The notes beneath the pieces were generated by a model, which was not told the origin of the DNA, searched no databases, and saw only the letters and a program-made list of their open reading frames with translations. The position numbers and the translations under genes are program-made. A stretch of 34,833 nt of DNA, from NCBI GenBank assembly GCA_947170225.1, contig CAMVSQ010000011.1, positions 1 to 34,833 of the forward strand. The letters run 5' to 3'. The DNA comes from an uncultured bacterium. Its GTDB lineage: Bacteria; Patescibacteriota; Gracilibacteria; Absconditabacterales; Absconditicoccaceae. How positions within the stretch are numbered: position 1 is the first letter of the stretch; each line of letters opens with the position of its first letter. Below, in pieces: positions 16,521-34,436 of the stretch.

Positions 16521-18233
16521 ATGTTTGTATCAAATTTAAAATTATGGAATTTTAGAAAATATTGATCAAATTGAGATATTGATTTGGAAAAACCTAATCT
16601 AGATATTTCACTTAATAGGTGAATGAATCTTTTTGTTTGACCTAATGATTCAGGTAAAACAGCCGTTATAGATGCATTAAAATTAGTATTAAAGACTTGT
16701 TCATCAGAATGGATAAGACTAGAACAAGATGATTTTTTTTGAGATACAAAAGATTTAAGAATTGAAGTTATAATCTCTGATTGATATGAAAATGAAGAAA
16801 AATCTGCTAATTGGGCAAAAAATTTTACAGAATGGTTAAGTTTTGATGAAAATAAAAAACCCCAATTAAGATTAATTTTAGAAGCTCATATTAATGAATT
16901 ATGAAAAATTCTTCCATATGATATAAAGGCATGAAATGATGAACAGTGATCTTTATTATCAGCAGAAGCTAAAGATTATTTAAAAACAGTATATTTAAAA
17001 CCTTTAAGAGATGCGAGTCATGAATTGACACCCAAAAGGGGCTCTAGATTATCTCAGATTTTAGCATGAACTCCGCAATTTAATCCTAATATAGACCACG
17101 TATTTATCGGTGCTTTGAATGATTTTTCAGAAATAATAGAAAGATATTTTAAAGAATGAGAATGAGCGGATTGAATATCAAAATGAATCAATGAATTATT
17201 GAATGATTTTTGAAAAGATGAAACATATATAAAGCCCACCGAAAAAATTGATTTAAAATACATTTTAGAATTATTAAAATTATCTTACAACGAGAAAAAA
17301 CCTTGATTATGAAGTCAAAATTTATTATTTATTGCAACTGAATTATTGTATTTCTCATTATCAAATGATGAAAATTTAAAATTAGGACTTATTGAAGAAA
17401 TAGAAGCACATCTCCATCCACAAAAACAGTTAAAAGTTATTCAAGCGTTAGAAGAACAATCAAAACAAAAATGATTCCAATTAATTTTAACAACACATAG
17501 TCCAAATATATCATCTAAAATAGATATTGAAAATTTGTTTTTATTCGATTGAAACGGTGTTTTCTCTTTAAGAAAGGAAGAAACAAAACTAGAAGAAAAA
17601 GATTATAGTTTTCTTGAAAGATTTTTGGATGTAACCAAAGCTAATCTATTTTTTTCTAAATGAATTATATTTGTAGAATGACGGTCAGAAGAGATTTTGA
17701 TACCAGCAATAGCAAAACAAATTTGATTAGATTTGACAAAAAAAGAAGTATCAGTTATTAATATATGAAATGTTTGATTTTCACATTATGAAAAAATTTT
17801 TCAAAGGAATGATGGTAAACTAATTGATGTAAAGACTTCTATAGTTACAGACCTTGATTTATATGAAAATGATGAAAAGTGGGAGGAAAGAGATGACAAA
17901 ATAAGACAGAAGAGAGCTCACGAAACGGGTAATTCTAAAGTATTTATTTGAAAAGAGTGAACATTGGAACGATGTTTATTTAAAGCATTATGAGAAGATA
18001 TATTCAAACAACTCGTTTTAAAAGTTCATTCTAAAAAGTTTAATGAAACAGATAAAGATGTTTGAGAAATCTTAAAAGAATTATTAAAAAATCATAGATT
18101 TCATAAAGTTAAATTCTCTTATATTTTAGCACAAGAAATTGAAGAATGAAATGTAGTATTAGACCAAGAGAATGATTATATAAAATATTTAATTGATGCT
18201 ATAAAATATGCCTGTTGAGAATCGATTTGATAA
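16521..18233 (+). CDS. gajA: Gabija-type OLD-family nuclease (GajA-like)
   Basis: 570 residues, close to the length of known GajA. The N-terminal ABC-type ATPase has LKLWNFRKYG, Walker A GPNDSGKT (40-47), Walker B and following IEEIEAHLHP (291-300) and the H-loop TTHSP (324-328). The C-terminal TOPRIM domain has FVEGRSEE (E386), TDLD (D444, D446) and GKEGTLERCLF. This order defines OLD nucleases; a UvrD-like helicase gene immediately downstream marks the class 2/Gabija arrangement. In Gabija, GajA is a DNA-nicking nuclease whose activity is restrained by nucleotides. Glycines use TGA heavily but also GGT. Codon thirds favour T, unlike miaB upstream. Ends TGA TAA; overlaps the next gene by 26 nt. 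Confidence 0.88.
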
Positions 18234-20148
18234 TATAGAAAATGATTTACTGTATGCAGAAAAAGCCTTACTTGGAGATTTACAATCTTTTAACGATGAA
18301 AGAAAAATTTTTATTAAAGATTTTGAAAATAGTTTTGATGTACAAGCTGTTCCTTGAAGTTGAAAGACTACAGCACTATTGGCAAAAATTATTATCATGG
18401 AAAGAAATTTTGATAAAATTAATTGATGAATATTGATATTGTCTTACACAAATAAAGCAGTTGATAATATAAAATTTAGGATTTGAAAATATTGTTCAAA
18501 AATTTTTAATTCGAATAAATGTTTTATTTGAACAATACAAAGTTTTGTTGATACTTTTTTAGGTAAACCTTATTATAATTTTAAACATCATAAAAAAATA
18601 GATGAAATAGATGATGAGTATTGGTTATCTAGCATAAAAAAAAGAATTTGATATAGCTATCGACTAGAAAAACAAACTAATTTTAAGTACTTTTCATTGC
18701 ATATAAATGATAATTGAGAATTGGATTGAGAGATATGAGTGAATAAAAATACAGAAACTTATAAGAAACTTCAAAAGGCTTATCAAGATATATATAATTT
18801 AGGTATTTTTAATTTTGATGAAATGTTTTATCTTGCTGAAAAATATATAAATGAATATCCGGTTATTAAGGATGTCTTAAGAAAGCGCTTTAAATATATT
18901 TTTATTGATGAAATTCAAGATTTAAAAAAAAATCATATCAATCTAATTGAAAATATATTTGATTCACCGTGTTGCGTGATTCAGAAAATTTGAGATATAA
19001 ATCAAGCAATATTCAGAGATGAAAAGAGTTGATCTGAAAATAATTGTAATCGGTTACCTAAATGTTATAAAGGCACAGAAAATCCGTATTTTATTTCATG
19101 ATCATATCGTCTATCTGTAAAAAATGCAGAAATTGTAAACCAATTTCAGCTGAATCAAGACTATGAGAAGATTAAGTGACTGAATGTGAAAAGTAAGGGA
19201 TTCTCACCAACATTACTGCTATATGATTCTTGAGATATAGATAAAATAATTGATCGATTTATTGAGAATTTGAATAAAAAATGATTCGAAAAGAATTATA
19301 TAGTTCCAAATGAAAAAATTAATGATCAAGATAAATTACGGTATAATGTTATAGCCCGGACAACAAAAAATGCAGGTAATCGTTTGAGCTTAAAAGATTA
19401 TTTTGTAGATTATTCAAAAGAAAGTTCTGAAGTAAAAAATTTAAGAAAAGTTCATTACAGGAATATGATATCTTATCTAAATAGTGCGTTTATGTGTAGA
19501 AATGATATTTCGTCAGTAAGGAAAATGCTATTATACAGTATTATTAATATTTTGAGATGACATAAAATTAATTGAAAAGAAATTCATTGAATTAGGTCTT
19601 TATATGATTCATTGAAAGATAATGAAGAAACATATAAAAGCTTTAAACTATTTATATATGAAGAATGCTTAAAAATAAAACAGTGTTGATGAAATAAAGA
19701 TGAATTAATATTGATTAAAAAAGATATAATTTCAAAATTAAAAGTACTTTTTTTAGAATATGGTTTTTGTCCCAATTGGTTACCAAAAGATTATTTATCA
19801 GATGAAATATCAGACAATTATACTCCTTTATCATGAAATGAATCAGATTATTTAGTTAAAGATTGATATTATATTTCTTTTAATTCTGTACATGGATGTA
19901 AATGACAAGACCATAAGGTAACTTTATTTGTGACAACAAAATTTCATAAAGATGATATTAAGTTTTTTATCGATATATATAATGGTAAAAATCATAATAA
20001 AAAACATCATATAGCAGCTAAAAAGATTTTTTATGTTTGATTTAGCCGCGCAAAAGATCGACTCTGTTATGCTACAAAAAAAGAAGAGATTCCTCAAAAA
20101 GATATTAAAATGTTAGAATCTAAAGGTTGGGAAATAATATCCTTATAA
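18208..20148 (+). CDS. gajB: Gabija-type UvrD-like helicase (GajB-like)
   Basis: 646 residues, longer than the usual GajB of about 500. Superfamily 1A motifs in order: VQAVPGSGKTTALLAK (Walker A near 47-55), LSYTNKAVDNIKFRI, GTIQSFVDTFLG, FIDEIQDLKKNH (motif II, 233-238), KIGDINQAIF, SGSYRLS, SVHGCKGQDHKVTLFV (motif V-like) and FYVGFSRAKDRLCYAT (motif VI, near 609-623). It should be an ATPase/helicase that works with GajA, sensing or processing DNA termini during phage infection. It starts inside the 3' end of gajA in another frame, implying translational coupling. The glycines of Walker A are one GGN-free pair of TGA codons (CCT TGA AGT TGA AAG). Confidence 0.87.
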
Positions 20149-28096: not shown

Positions 28097-30061
28097 TTAT
28101 TCAAATATTTTTCTTACAATTTCTTCAAATTCTTCTCTATAAGGAATCATTTTTTTATCATGTAGTCGATAATAAAATCCATGATTACAAAAATTTATAG
28201 TCGGTTCCAATCATTTCTTTTCCAAAGCTAAATATGTTTCCAAATCTCATTTTTTCATAATAAAAATTCATCTATCATAAAACGATTTTATTTTTGAAAT
28301 GATATATTTGTATCTATGCGGATAATCTTTTTTAATTATTGAAATAATTCTAGTATAAAATTTTTGCTTATTTATTTGCTCCATAGAATACTGATTTTTT
28401 GCCAATTTGATATATTCAGACATTTCTTGTGGTGTCACAATACTATTTTCTATCGTATTGTCCCAATCTCAAATAAAATATCATTTAATACCAAATTTAT
28501 TCAAAAATCTAGTCCATTTCCTATAACTTCATTTTCCATTGATATTTAATATTTCATAATCTTCAAATTTTCACTCAAATTCTGGCTGTTTAGACAAAAA
28601 ATTCATATAAAATTTCCAAAAATATTCATCAGTTTCTCATTCTACCATAATAATTTTGTTTATAAAAAATACTTTTGAAATATTTTCAAATTTTAAAATA
28701 TGGATCAACGAACTCTCTGAATCACGAATTCATTCAACAGGGTAGTTGATAGTAGTTTTTCAATCAATTAAACTAAATTTATACACATTGTGTATACTTT
28801 GTTCATCCACCAAAAGCGGAGAATGAGTTGCACAAATAAATTGCATATTCAATTTTTTTCAAATTTCTTTCAGCGTATCTACCAGCTTTTTCAACATATA
28901 AGGATGTAAATGCAATTCCAATTCATCTATTATAAACAAACCATTTGATAAATCATATCAAAACAAAACAAACAAAATCATAACTATTGATTTTTCTCCT
29001 GAACTCAATTTATCAAATGAAAGAGTCACTCATTCAGGATTTTTAAATACAATATAAATTACTTCATCCAATCAAACATCCAAATCCATAGTAAATCAAA
29101 GCATAGATTTAACATATTTCGCCAAATCTTTAAACAACGATAAATTTTTTATAAGATTTACTTTTTCATCAATTGAAACATCTCAAATATTTTTTCATAT
29201 TGCATGATATTGATCTCTAATATTTTTCAAAAGTTTGATAACAAACAAATCATATCCAATAGATACCGAACTAAATTTATCTTTATTGTGCATATCTATA
29301 TTTTGACTCCTATTTGAGATTGAATCTATAACCAGTGGATTTACATTTATTTGTGTATACAAAAACGGCCTTTCAGATTTCAAAAAAGCAAAAGTATTTT
29401 TTAAAGCATGCAATTTTTTTTGATCTGGCCTCCTCACAAAATCATTAAAAATATTGATACAAATCTGGATCAATCACATATTTTGTATATAAAACAAAAT
29501 ATATTTCATAGATGGTGATAAATTTTCTTCATTTAGTATTGTAATATCTCCTGTTTTTGTATTTACATTAAACTCCAAAAAAATTTCATTATTTAGCAAA
29601 AAATTTTGATCCTGATAGGGATAAAATTCCACATCCAAAGACGAATATTTCTTGATAATATTATTTAATATTTCATAATTTTTTGATACAAAATTCATAT
29701 TTTCAAAATCATACTGGCTTAATTTCAACGAAATATAAACTTTTGATAATTTTCACAAAGAAGAAGCATGCTTATAAAATTTTTTTGGTCTAATCAATTC
29801 TTTTACAATCACATTTTTTAAATAATTTTCATCTCAAGATTCCAAAAATGATCTGTCATAACGATACTGTTTGATCAATCCAACCCTAAAAATTTGATTT
29901 ATTATATCCAAAAAAGTACTTTTTCCAGATCAATTTGGTCAAATCAATATGTTTAAATTATTTCTCTCTTTCGTATCAAAAATAACTCATTGTTTATCTC
30001 AAAAATGCCTTATATAAGGGAATGTGGATATATTTGATATTTTTATCTGCGAAATCTTCAT
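28097..30061 (-). CDS. Solitary OLD-family ATPase/TOPRIM nuclease
   Basis: 654 residues. ATPase: Walker A GPNGSGKS (41-48), ABC signature LSSGEKS (352-358), Walker B and following GLFIIDELELHLHP (374-387), H-loop ATHSP (411-415). TOPRIM: IMVEGETDE (E474 region), FIGDWDN (D532, D534) and KKGDLETYL. The order and length fit OLD nucleases, but no helicase is adjacent, so it resembles class 1 OLD rather than Gabija. OLD proteins are known from phage P2 interference and other defences. It is less close to the 16521 protein than a duplicate would be: the middle region differs throughout. It lies 132 nt downstream of the VanW-like gene. Confidence 0.85.
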
Positions 30062-30193
30062 AAAATCCAAATCAATTTATCAAAATAAAATACAACACTA
30101 TTATACACAAAAACACTAAATTTTGCAAATTTTCAAAAACAAAAGATTTGACATTTTTCGTTATTGGTTTTCAATTACTTTTTTGCAAATCAA

Positions 30194-31285
30194 TTATGCT
30201 TTTCCTCCATATATAGTGGAATAAACTGAATCAAATTGGTACGATCAAATCAACAATCAATAATTATCATAAATTTGCTTAAATAGGGAAGAACGATATC
30301 AATTTACATTTTTTATAATTCAAACATAATTATTTATTTGTGTTGGTACAATTCAAACCAAATAAATATAATTTCATTTTTCATATGTTTTAAAAAATAC
30401 AGAATTATCAAAATCGTTGCGAATAACAAATTTTTTTGAATTTTCATACATTGCAGCATCATCTCACATAATATTTGCTCAATAATACAGCGATCGCCAT
30501 TTTTCATGCCCAGCTCTATCCAAAACTGTCAAATCTGGCATAATCAACGATAATCTAAATAACTGCGAACTTGCCCCACACGATCATCCATAAAAAAGAA
30601 AATATTTTGTACTTTGTCATCTACACGAACGAGGATCATTTGAAATTAAAGCATTTAAATCCAAAACTTCTCAAGGTTTCAATTCTTTTCAATTTAGCTT
30701 TCAAATCGCCAATTTATAATTTGTCAAAGAACATGGTCATCTATTAGCTAAATTTGTTGGCACTACATAAAAAGAGTAATCCTCAAACATCAATCTAGCT
30801 AATACATAATTATCTATTTTTACCATTTTGCCATTTTCAGCTAAATACAATAAGGCAATTTTTTCATAAATCGATCATCTATATTTTAAATATTCATCAA
30901 AAATTGAATAAGAAAAACTAGGTTTTGTGGGCTTATAAACAAAATTATATGAATCTTGCTGATACATATCATAAAACATATTCAAATTTTGTACCAAATA
31001 ATCTAATGATTTATCAACAGATAAATATTGAATATCTTTCACAAAACAGACAGGAGAAATATAAGAATAATTTTCATAATTTTGTACTATACATTTTCAA
31101 TTTTCCATCTGTTCAATCCTATCAAAATAGGATAAAAAATTGGTTTTTAATTTCAAATTTTCCACAATTTTTATATCATCCAAAAAATTTTGAAATTCAT
31201 AAATATCATTTGCAAAAGTTATTTGCAGTGACGCAACAAAAATGCCAAATGATATAACTATTTTAAAAAAAATTTTCAAATTCAC
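30194..31285 (-). CDS. Exported VanW-like protein
   Basis: 363 residues. A GTG start is chosen because a TAA lies a few codons upstream in frame and no ATG precedes the signal peptide (NLKIFFKIVISFGIFVASLQITFA, cleavage near FA-ND). The core KPGEVLDLNALIS, YFLFYGGSCGASSQLFRLSLIMPDLTVLDRAGHEKW and GDDAAMYENSKKFVIRN matches the VanW-like domain, in which a Gly-rich cysteine motif and RxxH are conserved. VanW-like proteins are secreted or wall-associated and of unknown chemistry. Several cysteines could form disulfides. Confidence 0.82.
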
Positions 31286-31527: not shown

Positions 31528-31555
31528 TTGACAAATAAAATTTTCTGATTATAAT
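31528..31555 (+). promoter_or_regulatory. Strong promoter of the candidate structured RNA
   Basis: TTGACA at 31528-31533, 16-nt spacer, TATAAT at 31550-31555: perfect boxes. Transcription would begin near 31562, at the first hairpin. Nearly the same block drives the SLH gene (5112-5139). Confidence 0.8.
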
Positions 31556-31561
31556 ATATAT

Positions 31562-32196
31562 GTCATCAAGAAATAAGAAGTCCTTGATGAAACAAAATGA
31601 GATCTTTAAAATAATTTATGTAATTTGAGATGTTCACCATTTGCTTTAATTTCATTGCTGAATGTGCAAATCATTCTATACCATTGATCATGAACAAAAC
31701 ATGATTAATTAATTTCTTTGTCTTTTCTTCACTACTGAAATGGCAGAGGAGCAGTGATTGAAGTCGTTTTTCTCTTTGAGATTTCTTGAAGTCTCTAACT
31801 ATATATTTAAATGATATTTAGTTTACAGAAAAACGGTCATAGTTATCTATTATGGTTTCTTTATCTTAATATTTCGCTCTAAAATAATGATAGTCATGAT
31901 AGCAAAATCTACTATTGTTAAATTATCAACTATTATGGAATATTAGGTTACCATATTGGCAATGTCTATGAAACAATACTACGGATATTTCAATTTTAAT
32001 TGCTACTATATTGTTCTTGATTCAAAAAGGATTATTGAATTTATCAAAATATTAGTTCAATAGAAATTCTCTTTCTATTTGATAAAAAGCTTTAAAATCT
32101 TGTTTCAATAAAGTACTTCACTTCATTGAAATATTACATAAATTAGATCTTAGTTTTGGAAAATTTAGAAGCAGAGTTGTCTGCTTCTTTTTTTTT
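31562..32196 (+). ncRNA. Candidate large structured non-coding RNA (about 635 nt)
   Basis: It lies between a consensus promoter and a strong terminator on the same strand and has no convincing gene. Visible helices: TCATCAAG/CTTGATGA (31563-31590); CGTTTTTCT (31765-31773) with AGAAAAACG (31827-31835), enclosing GAGATTTC/GAAGTCTC (31778-31795) and AACTA/TAGTT (31797-31823) as a multi-way junction; AATAGAAA/TTTCTATT (32059-32079); TTTCAAT/ATTGAAA (32103-32131). Several further ATCATG/CATGAT-type hairpins occur. It lacks the marks of RNase P RNA (no GAGGAAAGTC block) and of tmRNA. Its length resembles large ornate RNA classes such as ROOL, GOLLD or OLE, but no identity is claimed. One open frame inside, 31740-31946 (68 codons under code 25), is the main alternative. 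Confidence 0.6.
32167..32196 (+). terminator. Strong rho-independent terminator
   Basis: AGAAGCAGA, GTTG loop, TCTGCTTCT: a 9-bp stem whose last base begins a run of nine T. It is oriented for the plus strand; the left side lacks the A run needed for the minus direction. It therefore ends a plus-strand transcript rather than the convergent HdeD-like gene. Confidence 0.9.
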
Positions 32197-32209: not shown

Positions 32210-32794
32210 CTATTTCATCTCAATCTCAACAACCTCTCAATTTTCCAATCATTTTTTCACATCTTTTACAAACCTACTAATTTGAAAAGACCAAACCAAC
32301 ATAGCAATTCCTCAACCAATCAAACAAAGTCCAATCAATCTATTAAACAATAATACCGTCATTATTCAGTTCATTTCCATCAAAATTCACAATAGTACCA
32401 AAAAACATCACATAATCATCAGTCAAAATCGATTTCCAATATTTTGTTTTTTAAGATAAAAACTATCGCGAATCATAAAACTTCATTTTACCACAATAGC
32501 AATTCACAATAAAGAGACAAAAATCTTTAAAATCATTTCTCAAATCTGAGGGAAACAGAGTAGTAGTGCACCAAAAACAATTGAAAATCAAGAAATCACT
32601 CACAACAAACCCCTATCTCAATAATCAAAAGCTTTGATAGCAAAGATAAGTCATACAATTCACGATACTAATGCATAAATAGCACAAATAATAATTATAG
32701 TTTTTAGAGCTAATTCAGGCTGAAACAATAAATAAAATCAAAAAAATAAATAAAAGGCTGTTTCAAGCCAAAATAATAATTTAATGTTTTTCAT
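32210..32794 (-). CDS. HdeD-like (DUF308) membrane protein
   Basis: 194 residues from ATG 32794 (MKNIKLLFWLETAFYLFFG). About six hydrophobic helices are arranged as repeated pairs: IIIICAIYALVSGIVGLIFAIKAF, LLGVISGFSIVFGALLLCFPQIGEMILKIFVSLLGIAIVVKGSF, FGLMIMGCFLVLLGILM and LIGLCLIGGGIAMLVW. The pattern, with FPQ after a helix, is that of the DUF308/HdeD family, linked in enterobacteria to acid resistance but widely of unknown role. The frame stays open upstream to ATG 32872 and TTG 32926, adding another hydrophobic stretch; the shorter form fits the usual family length. Stop 13 nt from the terminator at 32196. Confidence 0.75.
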
Positions 32795-33536
32795 TTTATT
32801 CAATATAAAAAATAAAACACAACAATAAATATTCAAAATAAAAATATTTTCAAGAACATTTTCAACAAACATTGTGCAAAGTAGAAAAATAAATTTAATA
32901 AAAATTTTTACATCAAAAAATTTCAAAAAACAAATTTTAAAAAATCATAAAATTTTGATAAAAAAATAGATCAAAAATTTAAAGAGAAATTTTTCAAAAA
33001 AATAATAAAAAAATGGCATTTATACGAAAAATATAATTTCAAATTCGTTCATTTTTTGATTCAAGTGGCATAATTGTCCACCATGATAAAATTTTGATCA
33101 AATTTGAAATTATTTAGAGACACTAGGTAATACCGAACCAAACACGATATTACAAAAATAGAGTAATTAGCAGACCAAAAATTCCAAATTTTTGAAAAAA
33201 TTTTCCAGATCTATCAGATTAAAAAAATAAATTTTTTTTATTTTAATTTAAATTTTTTCAAAAAAATAGCTCAAAGAGCCAGAAAGAAAAAATCCAATTT
33301 ACTTTGCACAAGATACATTGTGCAAACCTATTTTTTTAAGATTTAATGAGATATTGATTTATCTCATTCACTTATCAACAATGTATAGTATAATCAAAAA
33401 ATTTTATTTTGCAAGTTTTTTTTACACTTTTTTTGTATTTTATAAAAAAGAGTAGTACTAACCTATTATTTCAATAGGGTACTTTTTTGTGAACTTTGCA
33501 CAATCATAATTATGTGAAAGTACTACTCTATTTGTA
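32795..33536. other. Long AT-rich gap with repeated words beside the integrase (att-like)
   Basis: About 740 nt without a convincing gene. The 11-mer ACTTTGCACAA occurs at 33301-33311, 33493-33503 and, inverted, at 32872-32882. At 33303-33326 it is part of a perfect 9-bp hairpin, TTTGCACAA/TTGTGCAAA, followed by a T run. AGAGTAGTACT (33449-33459) and AGTACTACTCT (33519-33529) form a perfect 11-bp inverted pair ending 8 nt from the integrase stop. Such words near a tyrosine recombinase are the usual look of recombinase-binding or attachment sites. Confidence 0.5.
33453..33488 (+). terminator. Terminator-like hairpin within the att-like region
   Basis: AGTAC-TA-ACCTATT, ATTTC loop, AATAGG-GTACT, followed by a T run. 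It overlaps the left arm of the 11-bp inverted pair. It could be a terminator or part of a recombination site. Confidence 0.5.
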
Positions 33537-34436
33537 CTATATTGTAGGTATTAACTGCTGTATCTGTTTAATTTTATTATTTGAAATATCCAAATACGAT
33601 TGGGTAGTAGTTATATTTTTATGTCATAGTAATTTCGAAATGTAAATTAATTCTCCTCCCCTATCAAGTAAAGTAGTAGCACAAGTGTGTCTAATTTTAT
33701 GCGGTCGTGTCTTCTCTACTCATGCTCTCTTGCTAGCAGCAGCGAATATTTTTTCCACACTGGCTCTACTTAATGGATGTCATTTACTATTGTTGGCATG
33801 ACTAACAAATACATACTCTGAATTTATCTGTAATTTTTTTCTCAAAAATAAATATAATTTGATTACCTTGATATAATCGGTGTGTAGATATACAAGCCTT
33901 GTAGTTTGTCATTTCCCTAATATTTGTATACTTTCGTCAATGTCTTTAATTTTTAGATTGCATAATTCGGATACACGAAGTCAGCAATACTGTAGAACAA
34001 GTCACATTGCATAATCTCTCATCCTTGTTATTTCGTTTTTTGTTTTATCGTTTCTCATAAACAACAATAACTTTTCCATCTGCTCTTGTGGTAATGCACT
34101 GATCTTTTTTTCTGGTTCTTTTGCAAAAAGTATACGGTTGTAATCCATAACATCCAATCACTTATGATTACAGAATTTTAAAAATGCTCTGATTCAGGCT
34201 AAATAATTATTGATGGTCCTGACATCTTTGCCTTTGATTCTTTGATTTTCTGCAAAATCTTCTATATCTTCAAGTTCAATGTCACTTGGGACATCTACTC
34301 CTCTACTACCAAATGATATAGATCTCATCCATCAATCAAGTAGTATACATGATCTAGAATAAGTTTTTATTGCACTTTCAGAAAAATTACGATTTATTTT
34401 TAATCGATTTTGAAATTCTTGAATAATTAAATACAT
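33537..34436 (-). CDS. Tyrosine recombinase / integrase (XerC/D-like)
   Basis: 299 residues, Xer-like length. The N-terminal SAM-like domain contains RNFSESAIKTYSRSCILLDGW and INNYLAGIRAFLKFCN. Catalytic residues: Arg154 in YCGLRVSELCNL, a Lys near 175 (GKGQTTR), His246-x-x-Arg249 in RPHKIRHTCATTLL, His272 in LLGHKNI and Tyr281 in TTQSYLDI. All six expected positions are occupied, so it should be active. It could be a housekeeping Xer or the integrase of a mobile element; the att-like words beside it and the accessory genes favour the latter, but no element boundary was found. Confidence 0.92.

Follow-up and report, generated by a model that had tools for sequence, protein, structure and literature searches.

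We examined a 34,833-nucleotide (nt) stretch of DNA from an uncultured bacterium of the family Absconditicoccaceae (contig CAMVSQ010000011.1; hereafter 'the window') and conclude that positions 31562–32196 of its plus strand almost certainly hold a real structured RNA gene. This element (type A; ~635 nt, with an approximate 5' end) shows full-length homology with 11 other copies, covariation and a favorable minimum free energy (MFE) fold. It is very probably a stand-alone gene for a large folded RNA that founds an undescribed family, comprising type A and a sister type B, and that is most likely structural in its mode of action. A sequence-only reading of the same DNA had proposed a candidate large structured RNA, the most likely undescribed element in the window, at this position. 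The lack of an Rfam match, the 13 homologues, the covariation and the absence of a conserved reading frame support that proposal, and to it we add that related genomes carry the gene as a family of several copies and that a second type B exists.

The homologues, whose collection the earlier reading had suggested, were found in related genomes. Beyond the window copy there are 13 (11 full-length and two truncated), and where identity between the full-length ones and the window copy was measured, it came to 57–63%. When 99 relatives were searched at the DNA level, strong matches appeared in genus g15 of this family and nowhere else. The family-wide census relied on two covariance models, R1 for the 5' domain and R2 for the 3' domain; true copies scored 90.9–132.7 bits with R1 and nothing else in the family exceeded 23.2 bits, and R1 returned no further relatives when run on 353 class-level and 380 phylum-level genomes. 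Weak model hits at G044:C5, G024:C34, G015:C2:43257, G020:C27, G010:C1 and G024:C9 were not accepted as members. The window genome (G000) carries one type A copy; of the g15 genomes, G015 carries five, G032 six and G024 (77% complete) one. All genomes are draft assemblies, those of g15 at least being metagenome bins, and these copy numbers are lower bounds. One G032 copy is split across two contigs and another loses its 5' part at a contig boundary. Contigs C44 and C45 appear to join, because their identical 5' ends overlap. The last 95 nt of one copy lie at a contig start in G039, from a third genus (g4), which could be a binning error.

Covariation provides the decisive evidence, and this check, also suggested by the earlier reading, gave a strong result. 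RNAalifold applied to 11 sequences yielded 166 pairs, 77 of them with compensatory changes; 12 sequences with RIBOSUM scoring yielded 221 pairs in 25 helices, with 91.7% of cells paired and compensatory changes at 106 pairs. When pairing partners were slid by 1–3 columns, 39–45% of cells were paired and 29–43 pairs were compensatory. Column shuffling, which moves whole columns and preserves relatedness, was followed by the same structure derivation and gave 15.6 ± 4.5 compensatory pairs, versus the real 106, and a refolding energy of −54.8 ± 6.0 kcal/mol, versus −199.2 for the real alignment. In a home-made, R-scape style tree-aware test, 14 of the 221 pairs reached E < 0.05. Of all 238,395 column pairs, the seven that scored highest are, without exception, base pairs of the structure. 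One copy, L077, was added after the first structure; at a hairpin stem of the 5' domain that is invariant in the other eleven copies it carries AAGUG/CACUU in place of GAAUG/CAUUC, and both changed pairs still pair.

Folded alone, the window RNA reaches an MFE of −156.1 kcal/mol versus −112 for shuffled sequences (z −8.3 with 20 shuffles and −6.8 with 30), its MFE fold recovers the main consensus helices, and all 12 copies fold better than their shuffles (z −3.2 to −7.9). The predicted conserved fold combines a 5' hairpin, a closing helix joining both ends of the RNA, branched domains and a terminator hairpin, all parts being given here on the plus strand. The 5' hairpin (31563–31590; helix 1, present in the MFE fold) has a nearly invariant UCAUCA/UGAUGA stem. 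In the MFE fold, the 5' strand of the long-range closing helices (31593–31624) pairs with their 3' strand (approximately 32133–32158); the homologous helix 3 of the consensus (columns 53–69/682–697) has four pairs changed on both sides. The 5' domain (31643–31764; helices 5–9) comprises a junction and three hairpins and contains the most conserved element, GCUGAAUGUGCAAAUCAUUCUAUAC, with the hairpin loop UGCAAAU. The earlier reading had described a long-range helix at 31765/31827; pairing of 31765–31773 with 31827–31835 around two hairpins (31765–31835 in all) is indeed present in the MFE fold and corresponds to helix 10, in which 7 of 7 pairs show compensatory changes in the 12-sequence alignment. 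In the central long arm with its internal loops (31837–31971; helices 14–17), both partners differ between copies at 27 of 47 pairs, and its helix 17 holds the top-scoring of all column pairs, while pair 469–580 of the 3' arm (31993–32098; helices 18–21) ranks second. The 3' hairpin (32102–32130, boundaries approximate; MFE fold, helices 22–24) is shorter in the window copy than its counterpart elsewhere, which is a double hairpin, and the window row is gapped there in the alignment. Several short stretches that stay unpaired (UGCAAAU, CUUUAA, UAUACU and UAAAA) hardly vary between copies.

The boundaries of the gene agree with the perfect promoter and strong terminator that had been claimed from the letters. 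The sigma-70 promoter (31528–31555, plus strand) consists of a −35 TTGACA (31528–31533), a 16-nt spacer and a −10 TATAAT (31550–31555), matching the consensus at 12 of 12 positions. Promoter-like sites are not enriched across the region (24 found versus 19.8 ± 4.8 expected), so what carries the promoter call is the 12-of-12 match together with its conservation among homologues: the aligned promoter (AAAATTTGCA ... TATAAT, with TTTGACA in the window) recurs in every one of the other 11 full-length copies. Alignments of the upstream regions indicated that an extended promoter, AAAATTTGCA...TATAAT...GTCATCA, is kept across copies, and that no similarity common to all of them extends further upstream. 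This extended promoter occurs at ten sites in six genomes, nine of which precede type A or type B RNAs; the tenth (G000:C2:10113), considered as a possible further RNA, precedes an ordinary protein gene. The intrinsic terminator (32167–32196, plus strand) has a 9-bp stem (32167–32188; helix 25, with compensatory changes) and a T run, at which homology between copies stops; two terminator-like sites were found versus 0.2 ± 0.5 in shuffles.

Weak R2 matches at G032:C19 and G015:C5:39917 were the first sign of type B, of which G032 and G015 have one copy each (L133:1658–2382 and L134:1920–2618, both on the minus strand; ~700–725 nt). The two are 68% identical to each other, have the same extended promoter upstream and a terminator at the end, and give more stable folds than their shuffled versions (z −4.7 and −5.0). 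Types A and B share the 3' double hairpin around CUUUAGG-AUUG-CCUAAAG, outside of which type B mostly gives no confident alignment with type A. Type B is probably a sister family, present once in each of the two more complete g15 genomes.

Several other explanations were weighed. That the stretch is a decayed or atypical protein gene translated with code 25 has a negligible probability. The longest window frame, 68 amino acids at 31740–31946, is open under that code only, with TGA read as glycine, and the longest frames of the homologues (31–61 amino acids) fall at differing alignment positions and in differing frames, under both code 25 and table 11; many alignment indels are not multiples of three. 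This coding reading was rejected because no conserved frame exists among the copies, which agrees with the earlier claim of a unit with no gene and speaks against the codon-like substitution in the 31740–31946 frame that had been named as evidence against it. A mobile element or ribozyme-like intron, dispersed by transposition and needing its structure for mobility, would account for the 5–6 copies at different loci in g15 genomes, the absence of the RNA from the syntenic site of a sister genome, and the tyrosine recombinase gene ~1.3 kb beyond the window copy. Copies within one genome, however, lie among different genes and are mostly 64–82% identical rather than near-identical (one recent pair reaches 92%), and they keep promoter, full length and terminator, while their flanking genes mostly differ and no common protein gene stands beside them, either as a mobility gene or as a clue to function. 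Moreover, three orthologues (G024:C45, G032:C67 and G015:C5; 83–89% identical) keep flanking genes common to all three; this set is therefore inherited in place, copies are stably inherited, and mobility is quite improbable. An RNA acting in trans as a regulator or sponge, mainly by base-pairing through conserved loops such as UGCAAAU with the fold as their holder, fits the nearly invariant unpaired stretches and the multiple copies per genome; it is nonetheless rather unlikely, since conservation over 25 helices and ~650 nt goes well beyond what a pairing RNA needs.

It is likewise improbable that the RNA belongs to one of the known large families (ROOL, GOLLD, OLE or HEARO) and has diverged below the detection limit. 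Such an origin would fit the size class (ROOL env-120 has 659 nt; PMC12286853), the stand-alone organization, the long-range fold and the lack of an associated protein gene. The Rfam covariance search proposed earlier, however, gave no match for the window at gathering thresholds, and no family matched type A copies or type B with permissive filters at E ≤ 1; the ROOL, GOLLD, OLE and HEARO models are, we presume, all included in the Rfam 15 copy that was searched. The copies are chromosomal, no tRNA genes were present within the flanks examined around them, and they had no match in phage or plasmid records, unlike ROOL, for which phages and prophages are the described setting, frequently close to tRNA islands (PMC12286853). 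In IMG/VR no contig contained the conserved cores, the single hit (L079) being a chance match, and a phage, plasmid or virus origin was rejected on this lack of matches. Among ten neighbor genes, an ABC transporter alone matched PHROG. RNase P RNA and transfer-messenger RNA (tmRNA) are also structured and stand-alone, but neither matches the window and the genome's own copies lie on contigs C9 and C6, in keeping with the earlier remark that the element lacks the signature blocks of both. At L035:5698–5792, ~2 kb from an RNA copy, the Rfam model n00280 (a C. difficile small RNA) scored 52 bits, short of its cut-off of 65.

The new family, which we prefer to these alternatives, belongs descriptively among large structured stand-alone bacterial non-coding RNAs, having its own promoter and terminator, a long covarying fold and no reading frame. 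OLE (Ornate, Large, Extremophilic), ROOL (Rumen-Originating, Ornate, Large) and GOLLD are likewise large, stand-alone and elaborately folded, with functions still open (PMC12286853). The window family resembles ROOL in length (~650 nt), in standing alone without an associated protein gene and in its many-branched fold; it differs in being chromosomal and multi-copy, in lacking an Rfam match, phage or plasmid records and nearby tRNAs, and in showing no pseudoknots or kissing loops. It shares with OLE a length of ~600 nt and a conserved elaborate fold, but has no OLE model match and no established partner; OLE associates with an OapA-type membrane protein; the convergent neighbor in the window encodes a DUF308 protein, whose relatives co-occur with the RNA but whose gene is not adjacent to it in g15. 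GOLLD is also a large ornate RNA, but is larger and phage-linked (PMC12286853) and its model finds no match here. We have not filed the family under ROOL, GOLLD or OLE because the covariance-model test failed and the phage and tRNA context of ROOL is absent.

The RNA would be strongly transcribed as a free molecule, as the promoter suggests, stay folded and act in trans as RNA. Its mode would be structural, as a self-assembling or protein-holding scaffold rather than by mRNA pairing or coding, and the several diverged copies per genome might provide alternative or mixed subunits. By analogy, a structural scaffold, alone or with proteins, has close to an even chance of being correct. It is a good deal less probable, though not far-fetched, that types A and B, of which a single ~1.3-Mb genome can hold as many as seven genes, form homo- or hetero-oligomeric RNA particles; a homo-oligomeric RNA-only particle is a trait of ROOL, GOLLD and OLE. 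The probability left over by the scaffold and the base-pairing regulator falls to other functions that we do not name. Several points weigh against the preferred reading. The 12 full-length sequences come mostly from one genus, so that per-pair significance is modest, and the structure was derived from the same alignment on which pairs were counted. Transcription of 31560–32196 is predicted, and no protein partner was identified. A search for conserved loop–loop complementarity gave no convincing candidate for a pseudoknot or kissing loop, and the scaffold or oligomer part is thus argued from analogy with OLE, ROOL and GOLLD.

Only a handful of known bacterial RNA families have such size and complexity, and the best-studied of them (OLE, ROOL and GOLLD) still have open functions. 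A new family in ~1-Mb genomes, with five or six diverged copies and a sister type, offers natural variants for covariation and structural work. It also suggests that RNAs of this kind have a wider distribution, and lie on chromosomes more frequently, than descriptions to date imply. If oligomeric particles do form in patescibacteria, they would be an RNA counterpart of protein shells built from several subunit genes. Our literature search, with subscription journals and preprints outside its reach, found no paper that deals with structured non-coding RNAs of candidate phyla radiation bacteria.

The host genome (0.95 Mb, 24 contigs) belongs to a code-25 bacterium, since reading frames in the window resolve only with TGA as glycine: table 11 gives no long frames, and code 25 reveals ordinary genes, among them ftsA, ftsZ and dnaN. 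This code is used by the Gracilibacteria/Absconditabacteria group. To the left of the RNA gene lies a VanW-like protein gene (30194–31285, minus strand) and to the right, convergently, the DUF308 protein gene (32210–33019, minus strand); running rightward between two leftward genes, the RNA gene forms its own transcription unit. Among 49 family genomes, relatives of this DUF308 protein are confined to the four that gave strong RNA hits, apart from a weak hit in G030; we treat this co-occurrence as no more than a lead, since it could be coincidence or shared transfer. At the matching ftsZ–VanW locus of the genus-mate G001 an unrelated gene comes directly next, and the RNA, DUF308 and recombinase are all missing. 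The tyrosine recombinase gene (33537–34436, minus strand) encodes a protein that resembles g15 proteins (45%) more than the one found in G001 (32%), and because it is closer to the former there are hints that the RNA–DUF308–recombinase end of the contig was acquired.

Elsewhere in the window, a Gabija anti-phage system occupies 16521–20148, with GajA (PADLOC E 1e-178) and GajB (E 2e-129) encoded in overlapping reading frames in this code-25 host. A second OLD-family ATPase with a TOPRIM domain (28097–30070, minus strand), missing at the matching G001 ftsZ–VanW locus, is possibly a stand-alone defense gene.
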